Made by a program: the position numbers and the translations under genes
Shown here: piece after piece, positions 370-15,342 of the stretch
Layout: each line of letters begins with the position of its first letter
How positions within the stretch are numbered: position 1 is the first letter of the stretch
NCBI GenBank assembly: GCA_021816465.1
Contig: JAKAYF010000020.1
Span: forward strand, 1 to 32,140
From: Nitrospirota bacterium
GTDB lineage: Bacteria; Nitrospirota; Leptospirillia; Leptospirillales; Leptospirillaceae
DNA length: 32,140 nt
Direction of reading: 5' to 3'
The notes under the pieces: generated by a model
Told to the model about the DNA's origin: nothing
What the model saw: the letters and a program-made list of their open reading frames with translations, nothing else
The model's database searches: none

Positions 370-453
370 GGGCGATGGGGTTCGCCTGAACCGCACCGGC
401 AGCAGTTGCTACCGGATGATGATGACCCCTACTTTAAAAAAGTAGGGGGAGAT
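370..453 (+). promoter_or_regulatory. Fluoride riboswitch (crcB motif), translational
   Basis: The aptamer core reads GGCGATGGGGTTCGCC (371-386), then TGAACCGC, a variable stem (396-415), then GATGATGACCCCTACTT. This matches the crcB/fluoride aptamer as I remember it from Bacillus cereus (GGCGAUGGAGUUCGCC ... AAUGACUCCUAC). The P1 stem is GGCGA/TCGCC. Its loop GGGG (377-380) can form the pseudoknot with CCCC (426-429), where the Bacillus version pairs GGAG with CUCC: a compensatory change that supports the assignment. The expression platform is CCCCTACTT (426-434) pairing perfectly with AAGTAGGGG (440-448), which contains the ribosome binding site GGGGGAGA (445-451) ahead of ATG at 454. Fluoride binding would lock CCCC in the pseudoknot, free the site and turn translation on. 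No poly-U follows, so control is translational rather than by termination. Confidence 0.88.
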
Positions 454-711
454 ATGTTCGTTCCGGATGGATTTTTAAAGATATTGCTCTTGTTGGCGTT
501 TTTCCTCTTCTGGCTCATTTATGCGCTCATCCATGGCAATACCGGACCTTCTCCGGCTCAAAAGAATCCCTCCGTACCATTGATCGGCAAAATCACCCTT
601 CTGCTTCTGGCAGCTGTTCTGGCGATCTCCTTTGTCCATTTTGAAGACTCCCTGGACTGGCCTGATTTCTCAGCTCCCCCCCTCTTTCAGAATCTCCTGA
701 GCTCAAGATGA
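454..711 (+). CDS. Small two-helix membrane protein, first gene under the fluoride riboswitch
   Basis: This is an 85-residue protein with two hydrophobic segments (about residues 8-27 and 46-62) joined by a polar loop, and an acidic, proline-containing tail. The frame stays open upstream to 343, but the start at 454 follows GGGGGAGA at good spacing, and that site is exactly what the riboswitch hairpin hides; the earlier ATG would lie inside the leader. The stop overlaps the next start (ATGA at 708-711), so translation is probably coupled to the MFS gene. It lacks the motifs and four helices of CrcB/Fluc. In size and position it resembles the AaeX/DUF1656 proteins found beside some efflux pumps, but sequence similarity is not convincing. 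Possible roles are pump accessory subunit or translational-coupling cistron. Function unknown. Confidence 0.7.
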   Translation: MFVPDGFLKILLLLAFFLFWLIYALIHGNTGPSPAQKNPSVPLIGKITLLLLAAVLAISFVHFEDSLDWPDFSAPPLFQNLLSSR

Positions 712-2237
712 AGCCCTGGACTTTTCTCGTACACAGGGAGATCTCTCCTTGGCTGGTCCTCCTCTCCGTCATTGTCGGCGTCGGAATGCCTCTTGCCGAC
801 ACAACGATCACCAATGTCGGGCGAGTCTTTATCGTAAGCAGTCTCGGAGTCACAAGCTATGAAGCCGGATGGCTGACCGCAAGCTACAGTCTGGCCCTTG
901 CGGTTGGCGTTCCCCTGTCGCATCGGCTGAGGGGTTTTTTCGAAGAAAAGAACCTGTATTCGGGCGCTATTCTGGCATTCATGCTGGGCTCCCTTTTCAT
1001 GGCCATGTCCACAAATTTCACCGAAGCCATGTTCAGCCGGGGACTTGAAGGGCTCTCGGCCGGGATACTGCTCCCCCTTGCCCCGATATTGATCCAGGAA
1101 TCCTTCCCGGAAAAAATCCGCCCGGTCGCCATGTCCACATTTGCCATTGCAAGCGCCATCTGGGTGACCCTCGGACCGACAATTGGCGGATTCATCATCG
1201 ACAACCAGGGATGGCAATGGGCTTTTGCCGTCAATATCCCCATCGGTTTTTTGGCCATTCTCTTTGCCCAGCTGTTCCTTTCCAATCACCCCAGGCAGGA
1301 CCCCCGCCAATTTGACGGGACGGGATTCATCATCCTGTCTGCGTCCCTCGGATTTCTTTTCACCGGATTCATGCGGGCAGAATGGGTCGGATGGCATTCA
1401 GACCAAACCGTCTTCTTCCTCGTTGCCGGGGTTCTTTTCTTTTTTCTTTTCTGGATCTGGTCCTTTTTCCATCCGGATCCGATCCTCCCGACCGAGATCC
1501 TGAAAAATCCTTTATTCGCCGTCATTCTCGCAATCGTATTCCTGCAGGCAACACAGAGCTTCGGAAGGCTCTATCTTCTTGCACCCTATCTTGAGAAAAA
1601 CTACCACTTCATGGCCCACAACGCCGGAGAGCTGATCGCTGTCGGTGCCCTTACGGAAATCCTGATTTCATTATCTTTCCTGTTTTCCCGGTTCCTGCCG
1701 GGAAAGTGGCCCATCCTCCTTGCATCGGGATGCATTCTTGTCTCCATTTCCAATATCGATTTTCTTTTTCTTCCTGCAACCAGCTTCAGTCTCTTCTTTA
1801 TCATAAAGTCCCAGCTCATTTTTGGAGCCGGTCTGGCCCTGACCCAGATATCGCTGGCCCCTCTTGCGGCCACGATTTTTCCCGCAGACCGCATCCGCGC
1901 CGCAACAACCTATCTCCTTGTTTTCCAGTTCATTGGAGGTGCGTGGGGAACAATGCTCGGACGCCATCTGGTGCTTCATGTCAAACCCGTCTTTTCACAG
2001 ATGCTGCCCCAGCTGTCCTACCGTCCTGATCCCCATGCGTCCGCCATCCTTCCAGACAAGCTTGCCCAGGCATTTACATCGAATATTATCTTTTACGACC
2101 TGGGTCTCATTGGACTCCTTGGAGGAGTCCTCGCAGTCGCACTTGTCCCGTTCATCTCGCCCAAAAGACAGGGACAAAAAGACCCACTAGGGAAGCCGGG
2201 ATTCAGAGAGATGGCTTCCCTTCTCAAGAAGGAATGA
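708..2237 (+). CDS. DHA2-family MFS exporter, EmrB-like inner-membrane pump
   Basis: The 509-residue product is a polytopic membrane protein of the length expected for a 14-helix DHA2 drug:proton antiporter. Near the N-terminus the DTTITNV motif matches the DTTIANV signature of EmrB. Around residues 155-180 the motif GPTIGGFIIDNQGWQWAF corresponds to the EmrB antiporter motif (GPxxGGxxxDxxxWxWxF). The ATG overlaps the stop of the small upstream gene as ATGA, with no strong ribosome binding site of its own, so expression should follow the riboswitch-controlled cistron. Downstream EmrA-like and TolC-like genes complete a pump spanning both membranes. Known EmrB substrates are hydrophobic drugs and uncouplers; the substrate here is unknown, and the fluoride switch suggests a link to fluoride or fluoride-associated stress. 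Confidence 0.88.
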   Translation: MKPWTFLVHREISPWLVLLSVIVGVGMPLADTTITNVGRVFIVSSLGVTSYEAGWLTASYSLALAVGVPLSHRLRGFFEEKNLYSGAILAFMLGSLFMAMSTNFTEAMFSRGLEGLSAGILLPLAPILIQESFPEKIRPVAMSTFAIASAIWVTLGPTIGGFIIDNQGWQWAFAVNIPIGFLAILFAQLFLSNHPRQDPRQFDGTGFIILSASLGFLFTGFMRAEWVGWHSDQTVFFLVAGVLFFFLFWIWSFFHPDPILPTEILKNPLFAVILAIVFLQATQSFGRLYLLAPYLEKNYHFMAHNAGELIAVGALTEILISLSFLFSRFLPGKWPILLASGCILVSISNIDFLFLPATSFSLFFIIKSQLIFGAGLALTQISLAPLAATIFPADRIRAATTYLLVFQFIGGAWGTMLGRHLVLHVKPVFSQMLPQLSYRPDPHASAILPDKLAQAFTSNIIFYDLGLIGLLGGVLAVALVPFISPKRQGQKDPLGKPGFREMASLLKKE

Positions 2238-2286
2238 AAATGCATTGCACCCTTCAAATAAAAACAATTTCCCGGGAGAAATCAGA

Positions 2287-3276
2287 ATGACCGCAGAAGA
2301 CCAGAACAATCATTCTGGAACAAGAACCCGTTTTTTTTCTCTTGCCGTCATGGTTCCCCTTCTGGGCTTTCTCCTGACGCTCCTGTGGGCAGTCAACCAC
2401 TGGTACGGAGAAACCCGGTATGTGGCCTCCGATGATGCCTACATCCAGGGAAAGATCACCTATGTTTCCTCAAGGCAACCCGGACGCCTGATCGCACTGA
2501 ATGTCAACGAAGGTGATCCGGTCAGGTTCGGGGAGATTGTTGCCACAATCGACCGGACAGGAGATTCCTACCTGAAACCGCAGGACACATCGAAGAATCT
2601 TCAGTCTTTCACCACCATCAAACGGGACATGGCCAAACTCCGGAGCCTCGAAAAACAGGAAACCGACGCGAAAGATCACTATCAAAGAGCAAAAGAACTC
2701 CTTGGCGAGGGATTTCTTTCGCCACAGAAACTCGAAGACCTCAAAACCGACTGGGAGCAGATCCATGTCCAGGTTTCAGAGACAAGAAAGCTGATCTCGG
2801 CTGAACAGCAGTCCCTCGACATATCGGAGGTCCACCCCAGAAATCGCATTGTCTACGCACCAATCAGCGGCCAGATCGCCCAACGACTCGTCAATCTCGG
2901 AGAATCGGTCAAGGCCAACCAGCCCATTGTCAGCATCATCAATCTTGAAAATCCGGACAACATATGGCTCGATGCGTTCGTCCGCGAAACACAGGTCTGG
3001 AAAATCAAACCCGGACAAAAGGTACAGATACACGTTGACGCCTGGCCAAAAGACCATTTTACGGGACATGTTCTGGAGTTTATTCCTGCGGCATCTCAGG
3101 CGTTTTCCCTGTTGCCGACCCAAAATGCGGCAGGAACGTTCGTCAAGGTTGTCCAGAGAATTCCTGTCCGGATTGTTTTTGATTCCCTCAAGGGGAGAAC
3201 ACTCCTTCCCGGGATGTCCGCAGAGGTCCGAATCGACAGGAAAGGTCCTGCCGGTTCCCGGAAGAGGGATCATTGA
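2287..3276 (+). CDS. EmrA-like membrane fusion protein (HlyD family)
   Basis: The 329-residue adaptor would bridge the MFS pump and the outer-membrane channel. It has a single N-terminal membrane anchor (about residues 17-35), followed by the hallmark SDDAYIQGKITYVSSRQPG segment, a first biotinyl-lipoyl half (GRLIALNVNEGDPV), a helical hairpin around residues 105-185, and the second lipoyl half (IVYAPISGQIAQRLVNLGESV). A beta-barrel domain follows. I chose ATG 2287 because GGGAGA lies seven bases upstream; a TTG at 2245 would only add 14 unconvincing residues. It starts 49 bp after the MFS stop and its own stop overlaps the tolC-like start (TGATG). Confidence 0.88.
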   Translation: MTAEDQNNHSGTRTRFFSLAVMVPLLGFLLTLLWAVNHWYGETRYVASDDAYIQGKITYVSSRQPGRLIALNVNEGDPVRFGEIVATIDRTGDSYLKPQDTSKNLQSFTTIKRDMAKLRSLEKQETDAKDHYQRAKELLGEGFLSPQKLEDLKTDWEQIHVQVSETRKLISAEQQSLDISEVHPRNRIVYAPISGQIAQRLVNLGESVKANQPIVSIINLENPDNIWLDAFVRETQVWKIKPGQKVQIHVDAWPKDHFTGHVLEFIPAASQAFSLLPTQNAAGTFVKVVQRIPVRIVFDSLKGRTLLPGMSAEVRIDRKGPAGSRKRDH

Positions 3277-4637
3277 TGGGAAGGCTGTCCGGCTTGCCAC
3301 TCATGGTGTTCCCCCTCCTTCTCCTCTCCTTTTTCACTCCGGGACCGATGGCAGGAGCCCAATCGCCGGAAGAATTCAATGATGGGGCCAGCATTCCGAT
3401 CACCCGGGCCCAGGTCGCGAGAAAGGCCCTTGAGAACAACCCGTCGATTGTCATCTATGCCAGCGAATTTGACTCCAAGAATGAAGAGATCGGAATAAAA
3501 AGAGCCACCTACTATCCACAAATCTCGCTCAATCTCGATGAACTGTTCCTCAACACCCCTGTTGTCGGCATTTCGCTGCCCAATGAAACCGGAATCCCCC
3601 TGACTCTCTTCAACCCCAGCCTGAATCAGGAAATCAGCGGCTTTGGAAAACGCCATAACGAAGTTCTTGCAGCACGGCTTGCGAAACGGTCGGCTCGATG
3701 GAGCCTGAAGGAGGCGCAGCTGAATGTTGTATGGGATGCCGAGATCGCCTTCGACAACCTGGCCATGTACCAGCATCTTTTAAAAGCCGCCCTCAAAAAT
3801 GAGAAGGCCGCGAGGATTCATCTGTCTTCAGAAGAAAAACGTCTTTCCAGGGGACTGGCAATTCTCCCTGACGTCACACAGGCCCGGGTTTATCTGGAAA
3901 CAGCAAGCTATGCCGTCATGACCATCCAAAACAATATCCGGAAAGCCCAGACCGATCTGGGCTACGCAATGGGATCAAGCACCTTTTCCGCCTTCCATGC
4001 CGTCGAGAAAGGGGAACGAAACAATATCCCGAGAGATCCGGAGGCACTGATTGCCTACGCCCTTGACCACAGGCCCCTGATCAGGTCTCTTGAAGATCTT
4101 GATGAAAGGCGAAATGCCCTGATCAAACGGGCTTATGATGAAAATCTTCCAACATTGTCAGCTTTTGCCAACGGACTTTTTCTGTACGGCGTCCCTCCGA
4201 ACATCTCGGGAGCACCGCCGAACAGCGGTCTTTTCCTCCCGACCTATCAGACGGGAATCACACTCTCTGTCCCCATTTTTACCGGAATGAAAATCCTTCA
4301 CGAGACGCAGTCTGAGAAAGACAAGCTCCGGGGCGAGAAGGCAAAGACCCGTCTGGCCCGGATCAGGGTCATCAGAAATGTCCGGAAAGCATGGTTCGAC
4401 CTGAAAACCCAGAAAAAAAAGATCATCCTTGATGAAAGCCGGCTTGAAAATGCCCGGACAAACAAGAGCATGGTTGAAAAAAGCTTTAAAAGAGGCTTGG
4501 TCGATTCCGTTACGCGGATCCAGGCCCAGGCTCAATACCTTTCCGCCAGGGAGAGCCTGATTGCAGACCGGTATCGATACAAGATGATCCAGGATGAGGA
4601 AGGACGGCAGATCGGACTGTTGCCGGATGGGAAATAA
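3276..4637 (+). CDS. TolC-like outer-membrane efflux protein
   Basis: The 453-residue product has an N-terminal signal peptide (hydrophobic core about residues 7-25, probable cleavage after GPMAGA) with no lipobox cysteine. Two outer-membrane-factor repeats follow, seen as long amphipathic helices rich in Ala, Glu, Lys and Arg (about residues 50-200 and 270-440), with the usual SVPIFTG-type strand near residue 335. It would form the trimeric periplasmic tunnel and outer-membrane barrel of the pump. ATG 3276 overlaps the adaptor stop (TGATG) and has GAGG just upstream, so pump stoichiometry may be set by coupling. Length is typical for the family. Confidence 0.87.
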   Translation: MGRLSGLPLMVFPLLLLSFFTPGPMAGAQSPEEFNDGASIPITRAQVARKALENNPSIVIYASEFDSKNEEIGIKRATYYPQISLNLDELFLNTPVVGISLPNETGIPLTLFNPSLNQEISGFGKRHNEVLAARLAKRSARWSLKEAQLNVVWDAEIAFDNLAMYQHLLKAALKNEKAARIHLSSEEKRLSRGLAILPDVTQARVYLETASYAVMTIQNNIRKAQTDLGYAMGSSTFSAFHAVEKGERNNIPRDPEALIAYALDHRPLIRSLEDLDERRNALIKRAYDENLPTLSAFANGLFLYGVPPNISGAPPNSGLFLPTYQTGITLSVPIFTGMKILHETQSEKDKLRGEKAKTRLARIRVIRNVRKAWFDLKTQKKKIILDESRLENARTNKSMVEKSFKRGLVDSVTRIQAQAQYLSARESLIADRYRYKMIQDEEGRQIGLLPDGK

Positions 4638-4671
4638 GAAAACAATCAATCATGTTATATGGAGAAGGTTC

Positions 4672-5352
4672 ATGGCAGACTGGTTTTCAGGAAAAAAGGT
4701 CCGGATCAGAATCGGACGCTTGATCTACGCATCATTGGTGTTCTCCCTTGTGTTCTTTGGAGCCATCGGGGTCATTCACGCACAGGTGAACGATACCGCC
4801 TCAATCCATCGTTATGTGGGAGACGAGACATGTGAGGTCTGCCATTCGTCGGAGCGTATCGGCAACCAGTTCGGGATCTGGAAAAACTCGCCACATGCCC
4901 GGGCATTCACCGACCTTTCCTCTCTGAACGCCAGAACCATCGCCGCGAAAATGGGGATTTCAGATCCCCAAAAAAGTCCGGCATGCCTTTCCTGCCATAC
5001 AACCGCACCACATGTTGGCCTTACCGGCATCACCTCCTCCTTTCGACAATCCGACGGGGTGCAATGCGAGTCATGCCACGGTCCGGGAGAAGACTATGCC
5101 CGCTACAGCGCCATGGTGGATCCCCACAAGGCCGCCAGCTCCGGCCTTGTGGAAGTCCCCGGAGAAAAGACCTGCATCACCTGCCACAACCCTTCATCGC
5201 CAACCTACAAGACATTTGATTACAAAAGGGATGTGAAGAAGATCCTTCACAAAATACCAGCGCGCTTCCACAGGGAAAACCCGCAGGACCAATCAGATCT
5301 CAACGGAATCCCCTCAAGTGGGCGGAGCAAGAAAAGCGATCCTGACGAATAA
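4672..5352 (+). CDS. Tetrahaem c-type cytochrome, cytochrome c554-like
   Basis: The 226-residue protein has a membrane anchor or signal peptide (about residues 17-37) and four CXXCH haem sites: CEVCH (54-58), CLSCH (105-109), CESCH (132-136) and CITCH (168-172). The surrounding patterns, W-x-x-SPHARAF and GVQCESCHGPGEDY, are typical of the cytochrome c554 family of periplasmic electron carriers. ATG 4672 is chosen because GGAGAAGG lies just upstream; starts further left would overlap the tolC-like gene. The gap to that gene is only 34 bp and no terminator is visible, so it may be the last cistron of the efflux operon. A link between electron transfer and efflux is unproven. The lysine- and arginine-rich tail after residue 185 is unremarkable. 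Confidence 0.82.
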   Translation: MADWFSGKKVRIRIGRLIYASLVFSLVFFGAIGVIHAQVNDTASIHRYVGDETCEVCHSSERIGNQFGIWKNSPHARAFTDLSSLNARTIAAKMGISDPQKSPACLSCHTTAPHVGLTGITSSFRQSDGVQCESCHGPGEDYARYSAMVDPHKAASSGLVEVPGEKTCITCHNPSSPTYKTFDYKRDVKKILHKIPARFHRENPQDQSDLNGIPSSGRSKKSDPDE

Positions 5353-12690: not shown

Positions 12691-15342
12691 TCAGGCTTTA
12701 AAAGCATCACCAAAAGTTCTGGCCCCGATTTCCCGCATCTCGGCGAGAAGGCTCTCCAGATTTTCCGGCATCGGCCCTCCACCTTCCGCCCATATCGGCT
12801 TTCCGCCACCTCTTCCCCCCAAACGGGCGGAGAAGCTTTTGACAAGATCTGAAACCGGAAATTTTTTGGCAACGTCCTCGGAAGCCCAGCCCAGAAGGAC
12901 CACTCTCTCCGGAAGGACGCCCAAAAGAAGCACTGCCCCGGAGGTCACGTCCGACTTGAGCGCATCCATGCGAAGCCTCAGATCCTTTGGATCATCAATC
13001 GTGACATCGGTAAAGAGGAAGGAGCTTCCGTTGACCCTGACCCACTCTTTATCCCGTTGCCGATCTTCGGAAACAAAAAGCTTTGTCTTGAGAGCGGCCA
13101 CTTCCCGCTGAAGCCTGTCCCGCTCAGTTTTCAGGGTGGCAAGGCGCGAAAGGGCCTCTTCCGACTTTACCCCGCCCATTTCCTGCTCAAAAGCTTCAAG
13201 CGATGACTTCCAATAAAGAATCCGGTCATATGCCGCGGATCCGCAGACAGCTTCGATTCTCCTGATACCCGCAGCAACACCGCTCTCCTGAAGGATCAAA
13301 AAAGTTCCGATCTGACCTGTGCTCCTGGCATGGGTTCCGCCACAGAACTCGGTCGACGTTCCTTCCACCGAGACAACACGAACGATATCCCCATACTTTT
13401 CGTCAAAGAAAGCCAGGGCACCCACTTCCTGGGCCTTCGACTTTTCCATTTCGGAAGCATTCACCGGCTGGTCGCGGCGAATCCACTCATTGACGAGAGC
13501 ACCTATCTCTTCAAGATCGACCTTTGAGACCGGATGGGGAGAGGAAAAATCGAACCGCAGACGTTCCGGGGTAACGAGAGAGCCGGCCTGACGCACATGT
13601 TCGCCAAGAACCTGTCTTAATGCCGCGTGGAGAAGATGTGTCGCTGTATGGTGAATTTCCGTCTGGCGTCTTGAAAACAGATCAACCTGCTGATCCAGGA
13701 GTTCGCCTTTACGGACCGTTCCGCTTGTGACGGTCCCGACAAGAAGGATCCAGCCGGGCCATGGCTTTTTTGCGCTGGAAACGGTGATCTGACCAAAAGG
13801 TCCCCGCAAAAGCCCCCGGTCGCCGACCTGCCCGCCCCCTTCTCCGTAAAAAACGGTCGGGGTAAGCACCAGGGAGACCGATTCTCCCTCATGAACTTCG
13901 GTCACCTCTTTTCCGTCCCTGATCAGGAGAATCGCCTCGCCCATGACCTGGTCACGCTCATAGCCCAGAAACGAAACAGGAACGGACAGTCTTGAAGCCG
14001 GGACAGGAAAATCTTCCTTTTTGCCAACCCAGGACTGCCGTCCCCTTTCCCTCTGTTCTTCCATCTTTTCTTCAAATCCCTTGAAATCAAGATGGACGCC
14101 CTGATGCCTTGCAACATCCTCACAAACGTCGATTGGAAAACCATGAGTATCGTGCAGTTTGAAAAGCATCTCCCCGGGAAGGATATTCTCATTTCTTGAA
14201 ATCACTTCGTTGATGTAGCCCTTAAGCACAGGAAGCCCTTCCGAGAGAGTCCTTGAAAAACGGTCTTCCTCATGGGAAAGGACGTCCTGTATTCTCGACA
14301 GGGAGTTCTCAAGCTCGGGATAGGGATGATGCATCATGAGAACAGTCTGTTTTGCAAGATCGGACAAAACGGGAGAGGGCAGCTCAAGCTCCAGGGAAAA
14401 CTGGATGGCTCTCCGGAGAATGCGTCGGAGAACATATCCGCGACCTTCATTCGACGGAACAATCCCCTCGTGAAGAAGGAAAACGCCTGAGCGAAGATGA
14501 TCTGCAATAACCCGGAACGCATAATCGAGGGAACCATTGCCCATTTCATAGGGCACTTTTGCTTTTTGGGAGATGGAGTCTATCAGCGGCAGAAACAAAT
14601 CTGTTTCATAATTGCTGGCAACTCCTGCCATAATCGCAGAAATCCGCTCAAGACCCATCCCGGTGTCAATCGAGGGTCTGGGAAGCGGAGTCAGAACTCC
14701 ATCCCTTGAACGGTTGAACTGCATGAAAACAAGGTTCCAGATTTCAAGATAGCGGTCGCAATCGCATCCGACCATACAATCCGGAGAGCCGCAGGAAAAA
14801 GCCGGTCCCTGATCCACCAGAATCTCGGAGCAAGGTCCGCATGGACCGGTATCGCCCATCTGCCAGAAGTTGTCCTTTTCTCCCAGACGGACGATACGGG
14901 AAGGATCCACACCAGGCAGAGCCGACCATAGCGCCATCGCCTCATCATCATCCCTGAAAATGGTGATCCAGAGGCGCTTCGGGTCAATGGCAAGCTCCCG
15001 GGTCAGAAATTCCCAGGCAAAAGCAATGGCATCGGATTTGAAATAATCTCCGAAAGAAAAGTTTCCCATCATCTCGAAAAAGGTATGATGCCTGCGGGTA
15101 AAGCCAACCCGATCCAGATCGTTGTGCTTTCCTCCTGCCCGAATGCACTTCTGGATAGAAACAGCACGGGGCGTCCTTGGGGATTCCAGACCAAGGAAGA
15201 TGTCCTTGAACGGAACCATCCCCGCATTTGTAAACAGGAGTGTTGGATCCCCAGCAGGAATCAGGGAGGAAGAAGGTGTTACCGCGTGTCCTCGCGACTC
15301 AAAGAAATGCAGATACTTCTGCCTGATCTCCCAGGATGTCAT
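12691..15342 (-). CDS. alaS: Alanyl-tRNA synthetase
   Basis: This class II synthetase charges tRNA-Ala and clears mischarged Ser/Gly. The 883-residue product has the class II core at residues 1-250 ([53 protein letters not shown]), a tRNA-recognition middle domain, the editing domain with zinc ligands [11 protein letters not shown] and [15 protein letters not shown], and the C-terminal dimerisation/DHHA1-type domain ending in the glycine-rich [15 protein letters not shown] segment. A cysteine-rich insert ([15 protein letters not shown], about residues 180-195) is seen in many bacterial AlaS. Its ATG overlaps the recA stop (ATGA). Confidence 0.95.

Follow-up and report, generated by a model that had tools for sequence, protein, structure and literature searches.

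Leptospirillum and its kin, the acid-loving, iron-oxidising bacteria of acid mine drainage and biomining, carry fluoride riboswitches directly upstream of genes for a tripartite efflux pump of the EmrAB–TolC type. Comparison of their genomes indicates that this pairing, which recurs across five genera, is not accidental, and the pump is probably fluoride-induced and acts in fluoride resistance, as a main fluoride defence of the family that would stand in for Fluc/CrcB and CLC-F. Direct transport of fluoride by the pump is put forward more tentatively. Should fluoride be what the pump removes, this would be a new class of exporter running on different energetics; should it be something else, the pump would point to a so far unrecognised consequence of fluoride poisoning. 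Fluoride inhibition is also a practical problem in bioleaching (PMC12831704).

Only two kinds of bacterial fluoride exporters are known (PMC11139923). Genes linked to fluoride riboswitches have been reported to include, besides fluoride exporters, those for Na+/H+ antiporters, pyrophosphatase and haloacid-dehalogenase-type proteins (PMC11139923), as well as functions in DNA repair, K+/Cl- transport and formate hydrogen lyase (PMC2864571). An EmrAB-type pump behind a fluoride riboswitch, or a fluoride riboswitch together with Leptospirillum efflux, was not reported in any of the open-access papers searched. As far as checked, the aptamer and the pump type are thus both known, and what is new is their combination, its conservation and its setting in exporter-poor genomes.

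Genomes Compared

The window analysed here (32,140 nucleotides) is the entire contig C90 of a draft genome, G000 (1.98 Mb, 80.5% complete). The family comparison covered 21 Leptospirillum-family genomes, in which the surroundings of riboswitches were searched with the window proteins. A phylum-wide riboswitch survey covered 396 genomes, and neighbouring genes were sampled at 36 riboswitch loci outside the family.

The Riboswitch and Its Expression Platform

The fluoride riboswitch aptamer lies on the forward strand at positions 362–438, where cmscan matches RF01734 over its full length with 43.3 bits (gathering threshold 34; E-value 5.6e-9). A first-pass annotation, made from the letters of this DNA, had recognised a crcB-type aptamer here and proposed the covariance search, and the match is significant. 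RF01734 is the sole Rfam family at its gathering threshold in the window, and the draft genome contains no second copy of the aptamer. The sequence agrees with the model at its conserved positions, and the pseudoknot between the loop of the first hairpin and the 3' strand is present as GGGG/CCCC. In relatives the two strands read GGAG/CUCC, a compensatory change, or GGGG/CUCC, so that the variable pair occurs as G–C, A–U and G–U across the family copies; the compensatory pseudoknot of the earlier annotation is borne out in this way.

The expression platform is an anti-aptamer hairpin at 426–448 (forward strand), CCCCUACUUU-AAA-AAAGUAGGGG, which is built on the 3' pseudoknot strand. Its 10 base pairs join 426–435 to 439–448, the 5' arm starting with the pseudoknot strand CCCC, and its predicted stability is −15.1 kcal/mol versus −6.6 ± 2.2 for shuffled sequences (z −3.9; 0 of 200 shuffles equally stable). 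The 3' arm ends with GGGG at 445–448, which is the 5' part of the purine-rich GGGGGAG at 445–451 (forward strand), the likely ribosome binding site of the first gene, before the ATG at 454. The hairpin over the ribosome binding site, also proposed in the first-pass annotation, is therefore found to cover four of the seven positions. Because the 3' pseudoknot strand CCCC is at the same time the 5' arm of the hairpin, aptamer and hairpin are mutually exclusive. No U run follows the hairpin and the ribosome binding site is covered, and the platform therefore looks translational; the natural reading is a riboswitch that would turn translation ON. A terminator-type platform was rejected on the missing U run, and the terminator-like sites scanned were not above chance. 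A sigma-70 promoter was likewise considered, with TATAAT at 326–331 and a poor −35 element; the promoter scan gives no support and the promoter is not claimed.

This arrangement is shared among the copies in front of MFS genes. In all seven, an equivalent hairpin pairs the pseudoknot strand with a purine-rich stretch immediately preceding the start codon of a gene for a two-helix membrane protein (2TM), and the three strands covary, being GGGG/CCCC/GGGG in most and GGAG/CUCC/GGAG in L120 and L127. Copies in front of adaptor genes also have an anti-aptamer hairpin (CUCCUACC with GGUGGGAG, or close variants). In these, the start codon is about 150–240 nt beyond the hairpin, and their mechanism may differ for this reason, a point against the fluoride-defence reading. 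The adaptor-class leaders (L118, L122, L126 and others of genus g3) are long and in places C-rich before the start codon, and Rho-dependent control of them is possible. Compared with known fluoride riboswitches (the crcB motif, RF01734), the window shares the full aptamer, the pseudoknot, the conserved blocks and an ON logic through an anti-aptamer hairpin; it differs in that the platform looks translational and is not a terminator, and in that it would control a tripartite MFS pump.

The Operon

Five genes follow on the forward strand. The first (454–711) encodes the two-helix membrane protein, of 85 amino acids, with a C-terminal motif FExSxxWPxFS, a conserved companion of this MFS clade. 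The second (708–2237) encodes an EmrB-like DHA2 MFS transporter of 509 amino acids, supported by Pfam and NCBIfam (MFS_1; EmrB best); its match to TIGR00711 (E-value 2.9e-59) reaches 201.1 bits, below the curated cut-off of 230.2. An EmrA-like periplasmic adaptor of the HlyD family (2287–3276; Pfam, NCBIfam and best solved relatives) and a TolC-like outer membrane channel (OEP; 3276–4637; Pfam, NCBIfam) come next, and the last gene (4672–5352) encodes a tetrahaem c-type cytochrome, c554-like according to Pfam. The 2TM and MFS genes overlap at their stop and start codons, as do the adaptor and channel genes. Among solved structures, EmrB is the best relative of the MFS protein and EmrA is among the best for the adaptor. 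Among the sequence collections searched, the named relative closest to the window is a Leptospirillum sp. MAG, with 84% identity in the adaptor. The gene calls of the first-pass annotation thus stand for the three pump genes, with the two-helix protein recognised at its place and matching no Pfam or NCBIfam family; the cytochrome, which had been called only possible, has four CXXCH motifs besides its Pfam match.

With EmrAB–TolC of E. coli, a DHA2 MFS tripartite pump, the window pump has in common the three components and the kept equivalents of D29 and R109. It differs in having E for Q112, an additional two-helix protein and tetrahaem cytochrome, and riboswitch control.

Conservation of the Pairing

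Above-threshold fluoride riboswitches number 20 in the family, in 17 of the 21 genomes, and 19 of them are directly upstream of pump parts; at the twentieth (G020) the contig ends 298 bp downstream. In the window's own genus, all three species have the contiguous order riboswitch–2TM–MFS–adaptor–channel–cytochrome. Genus g4 (G005) has two riboswitches, one before the MFS gene and one before the adaptor–channel pair. The riboswitch heads the adaptor–channel pair in g2 (G003) and in most g3 genomes; a further copy precedes the MFS gene in G011 and G019 (g3), so that in G005, G011 and G019 the split pump loci each have their own riboswitch. In g5 (G006) the riboswitch heads the MFS gene; a partial adaptor is on another contig, with no riboswitch upstream within the readable stretch. 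Full-length adaptor orthologues occur in 16 family genomes, 15 of them in riboswitch-led operons and the remaining one with a contig end intervening, and the four riboswitch-free genomes are also without the adaptor. Two RF01734 matches in G009 and G015, weak at 22 bits, are below threshold and were set aside as chance. The scan of relatives that the first-pass annotation had suggested has, in this way, turned up the same pairing well beyond the window.

Two observations in the same set count against the fluoride-defence reading or limit its reach. In many species of g3, the largest genus, the adaptor and channel are riboswitch-led and their own MFS gene is not, which leaves the partnering pump uncertain there. 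G008 (96% complete) has no riboswitch, no adaptor and no CrcB, and the system would therefore be dispensable in some members of the family. A motif search found no diverged riboswitch upstream of the 15 other MFS copies of the family (the upstream DNA of L131 being missing).

Outside the family the picture is another one. The adaptor gave no comparable match in the 275 other Nitrospirota genomes searched, and one scan of a contig collection with narrow peptide patterns gave none outside Leptospirillum and 'Nitrospirae' MAGs; pairings in other phyla are possible. Fluoride riboswitches are present in 159 of the 396 phylum genomes. Of the 36 sampled loci, 20 open with a gene for an Na+/H+ exchanger (two clusters) and 7 with one for CrcB; pump parts were not detected at any of them by tblastn. 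An internal control is provided by a more distant adaptor–MFS paralogue of the same family genomes, which has no riboswitch; in the draft genome its operon has the order TetR, cytochrome, EmrA, EmrB, TolC, EmrA', EmrB'.

Known Fluoride Exporters in the Family

CrcB (PF02537) was not found in 20 of the 21 family genomes, and these 20 include G002, a single contig that is 99% complete, and G006 (99%). The exception is the window's own draft genome, with one crcB copy on contig C99, which has no riboswitch and is not linked to the pump operon. Its presence counts against the pump as a stand-in exporter, and the earlier statement that neither crcB nor a CLC-F gene is here holds for the window and fails for the draft genome. 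This crcB gene and a DUF190 gene next to it (L130, 11261–12086) stand between amidase/formamidase-like and urease-like genes; the CrcB–DUF190 stretch is possibly an acquired island.

Each of the 21 genomes has one CLC protein. A hidden CLC-F was considered and rejected, all three CLC-F signatures (GNNLI/GMGLI, GREGT/V and GEVTP, as given in PMC11139923) being missing from the CLC of every one of the 21 genomes. These CLCs (L060–L080) are divergent, with GGSAG(L/M)EG in place of GREG and neither canonical nor CLC-F signatures.

The window pump has the same place behind a fluoride riboswitch as Fluc/CrcB and CLC-F, including CrcB in other members of the phylum. The proteins are unrelated, however, and the known exporters are an inner-membrane passive channel or a single-component antiporter, whereas the pump spans both membranes. 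The fluoride-defence reading is strengthened because the pairing recurs, follows the split pump parts and is found in genomes without CrcB and CLC-F. The first-pass proposal of a fluoride-induced, envelope-spanning exporter in an acidophile has thereby gained strong comparative support and is partly borne out, with fluoride itself, a fluoride complex, an uncoupler or a metabolite as candidate substrates.

The Linked MFS Clade

The riboswitch-linked MFS proteins form one clade (support 99/99). They have in common a residue aligned with Q112 of EmrB, E114 in the window (codon 1047–1049, forward strand). This position is E in all seven linked proteins and Q in all 50 other EmrB-type rows (15 non-linked family homologues, 4 paralogue rows and 31 further EmrB-type proteins), while D31 and R111 of the window protein are the kept equivalents of D29 and R109. 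In EmrB, Q112 hydrogen-bonds D29, whose mutation abolishes resistance, and vesicle assays suggest that further residues take part in coupling (PMC13139468). A substitution fixed within one clade counts as only one event in evolution, and the change from Q to E is for that reason a lead, not proof.

A Possible Mechanism and Its Substrate

How the cell responds to fluoride, what the pump carries and what drives it are inferred as follows. HF entering the cell would lead to accumulation of fluoride in the near-neutral cytoplasm, where it would bind the aptamer together with Mg2+. In the bound aptamer the pseudoknot would keep the CCCC strand, the hairpin at 426–448 would be blocked and the ribosome binding site would be free. 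The two-helix protein and the EmrB-like pump would then be translated, with adaptor and channel following on the same message. The resulting EmrAB–TolC-type assembly would use the large inward proton gradient to expel fluoride species across both membranes, the exported species being most likely F- or HF itself. Release beyond the outer membrane would avoid the acid periplasm, where fluoride would turn into HF and re-enter.

The energetics might explain why a pump of this kind is used. Fluc channels require a membrane potential that is positive outside (PMC11139923), and in acidophiles the inside is positive, so that anions are drawn into the cell (PMC12831704). Because of this inside-positive potential, a passive Fluc channel would import fluoride in acidophiles; a proton antiporter could still export it because the pH gradient is usable. 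As a tentative proposal, bacteria may thus have a third class of fluoride exporter, in which an MFS tripartite pump, driven by protons, takes fluoride directly from the cytoplasm to the outside; it would have evolved where a passive channel would run in reverse. The known substrates of EmrB-type pumps are organic amphiphiles and uncouplers, with no inorganic anions among them, which counts against fluoride export.

A serious contender, not far short of an even chance, is that the pump is fluoride-induced and exports an organic weak acid, an uncoupler, or a metabolite or damaged product arising from fluoride-blocked enzymes or a collapsed proton gradient. It would then repair consequences of fluoride stress, like the riboswitch-controlled Na+/H+ antiporters and pyrophosphatases, which handle pH and phosphate and not fluoride itself. 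In E. coli, EmrAB–TolC gives resistance to CCCP and nalidixic acid (PMC13139468), and the paralogue operon of the draft genome sits behind a TetR gene, as is typical for organic substrates. However, no primary fluoride exporter was found in most family genomes, and a helper alone would leave fluoride inside; moreover, the proton-coupling site of the linked clade carries a fixed substitution for which a general drug pump would have no use.

Export of fluoride itself also has to be weighed against export of a metal–fluoride complex (with aluminium, iron or another metal) in place of free F- or HF, which we consider unlikely. A large-cavity MFS pump is better suited to a complex than to a small ion; on the other hand, the aptamer reports cytoplasmic F-, fluoride enters as HF, and we know of no high levels of metal–fluoride complexes in the cytoplasm. 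Complexation by Al3+ or Fe3+ does matter in bioleaching liquors, where it relieves fluoride inhibition (PMC12831704). Finally, it is very improbable that the aptamer is vestigial or now binds another ligand, leaving the operon without fluoride regulation: several family copies score only 34–38 bits, barely over the threshold, but the conserved positions are intact in the window, the pseudoknot is always kept, with compensatory changes across five genera, and none of the 20 copies shows decay.

Accessory Genes

The two-helix protein was compared with DUF1656/AaeX, for which there is no Pfam support. It precedes most members of the MFS clade in the family, riboswitch-linked and non-linked alike, and would therefore belong with the pump rather than with fluoride control, possibly as a small accessory subunit of the EmrB-type pump. 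A C-terminal motif resembling FExSxxWPxFSxxxPxYFLxxPS is found in the window protein and in the protein upstream of the MFS gene at L120, L127 and L132–L144.

The cytochrome has an orthologue at the same operon position in two congeners, and a c554-like homologue is present in 20 of the 21 family genomes. Its link to efflux pumps is conserved and has no obvious explanation. Two paralogous operons of the draft genome combine a c554-like tetrahaem cytochrome with EmrA/EmrB genes, at 4672–5352 of the window and at 14543–17365 of contig C87 (L205, 6508–9693).
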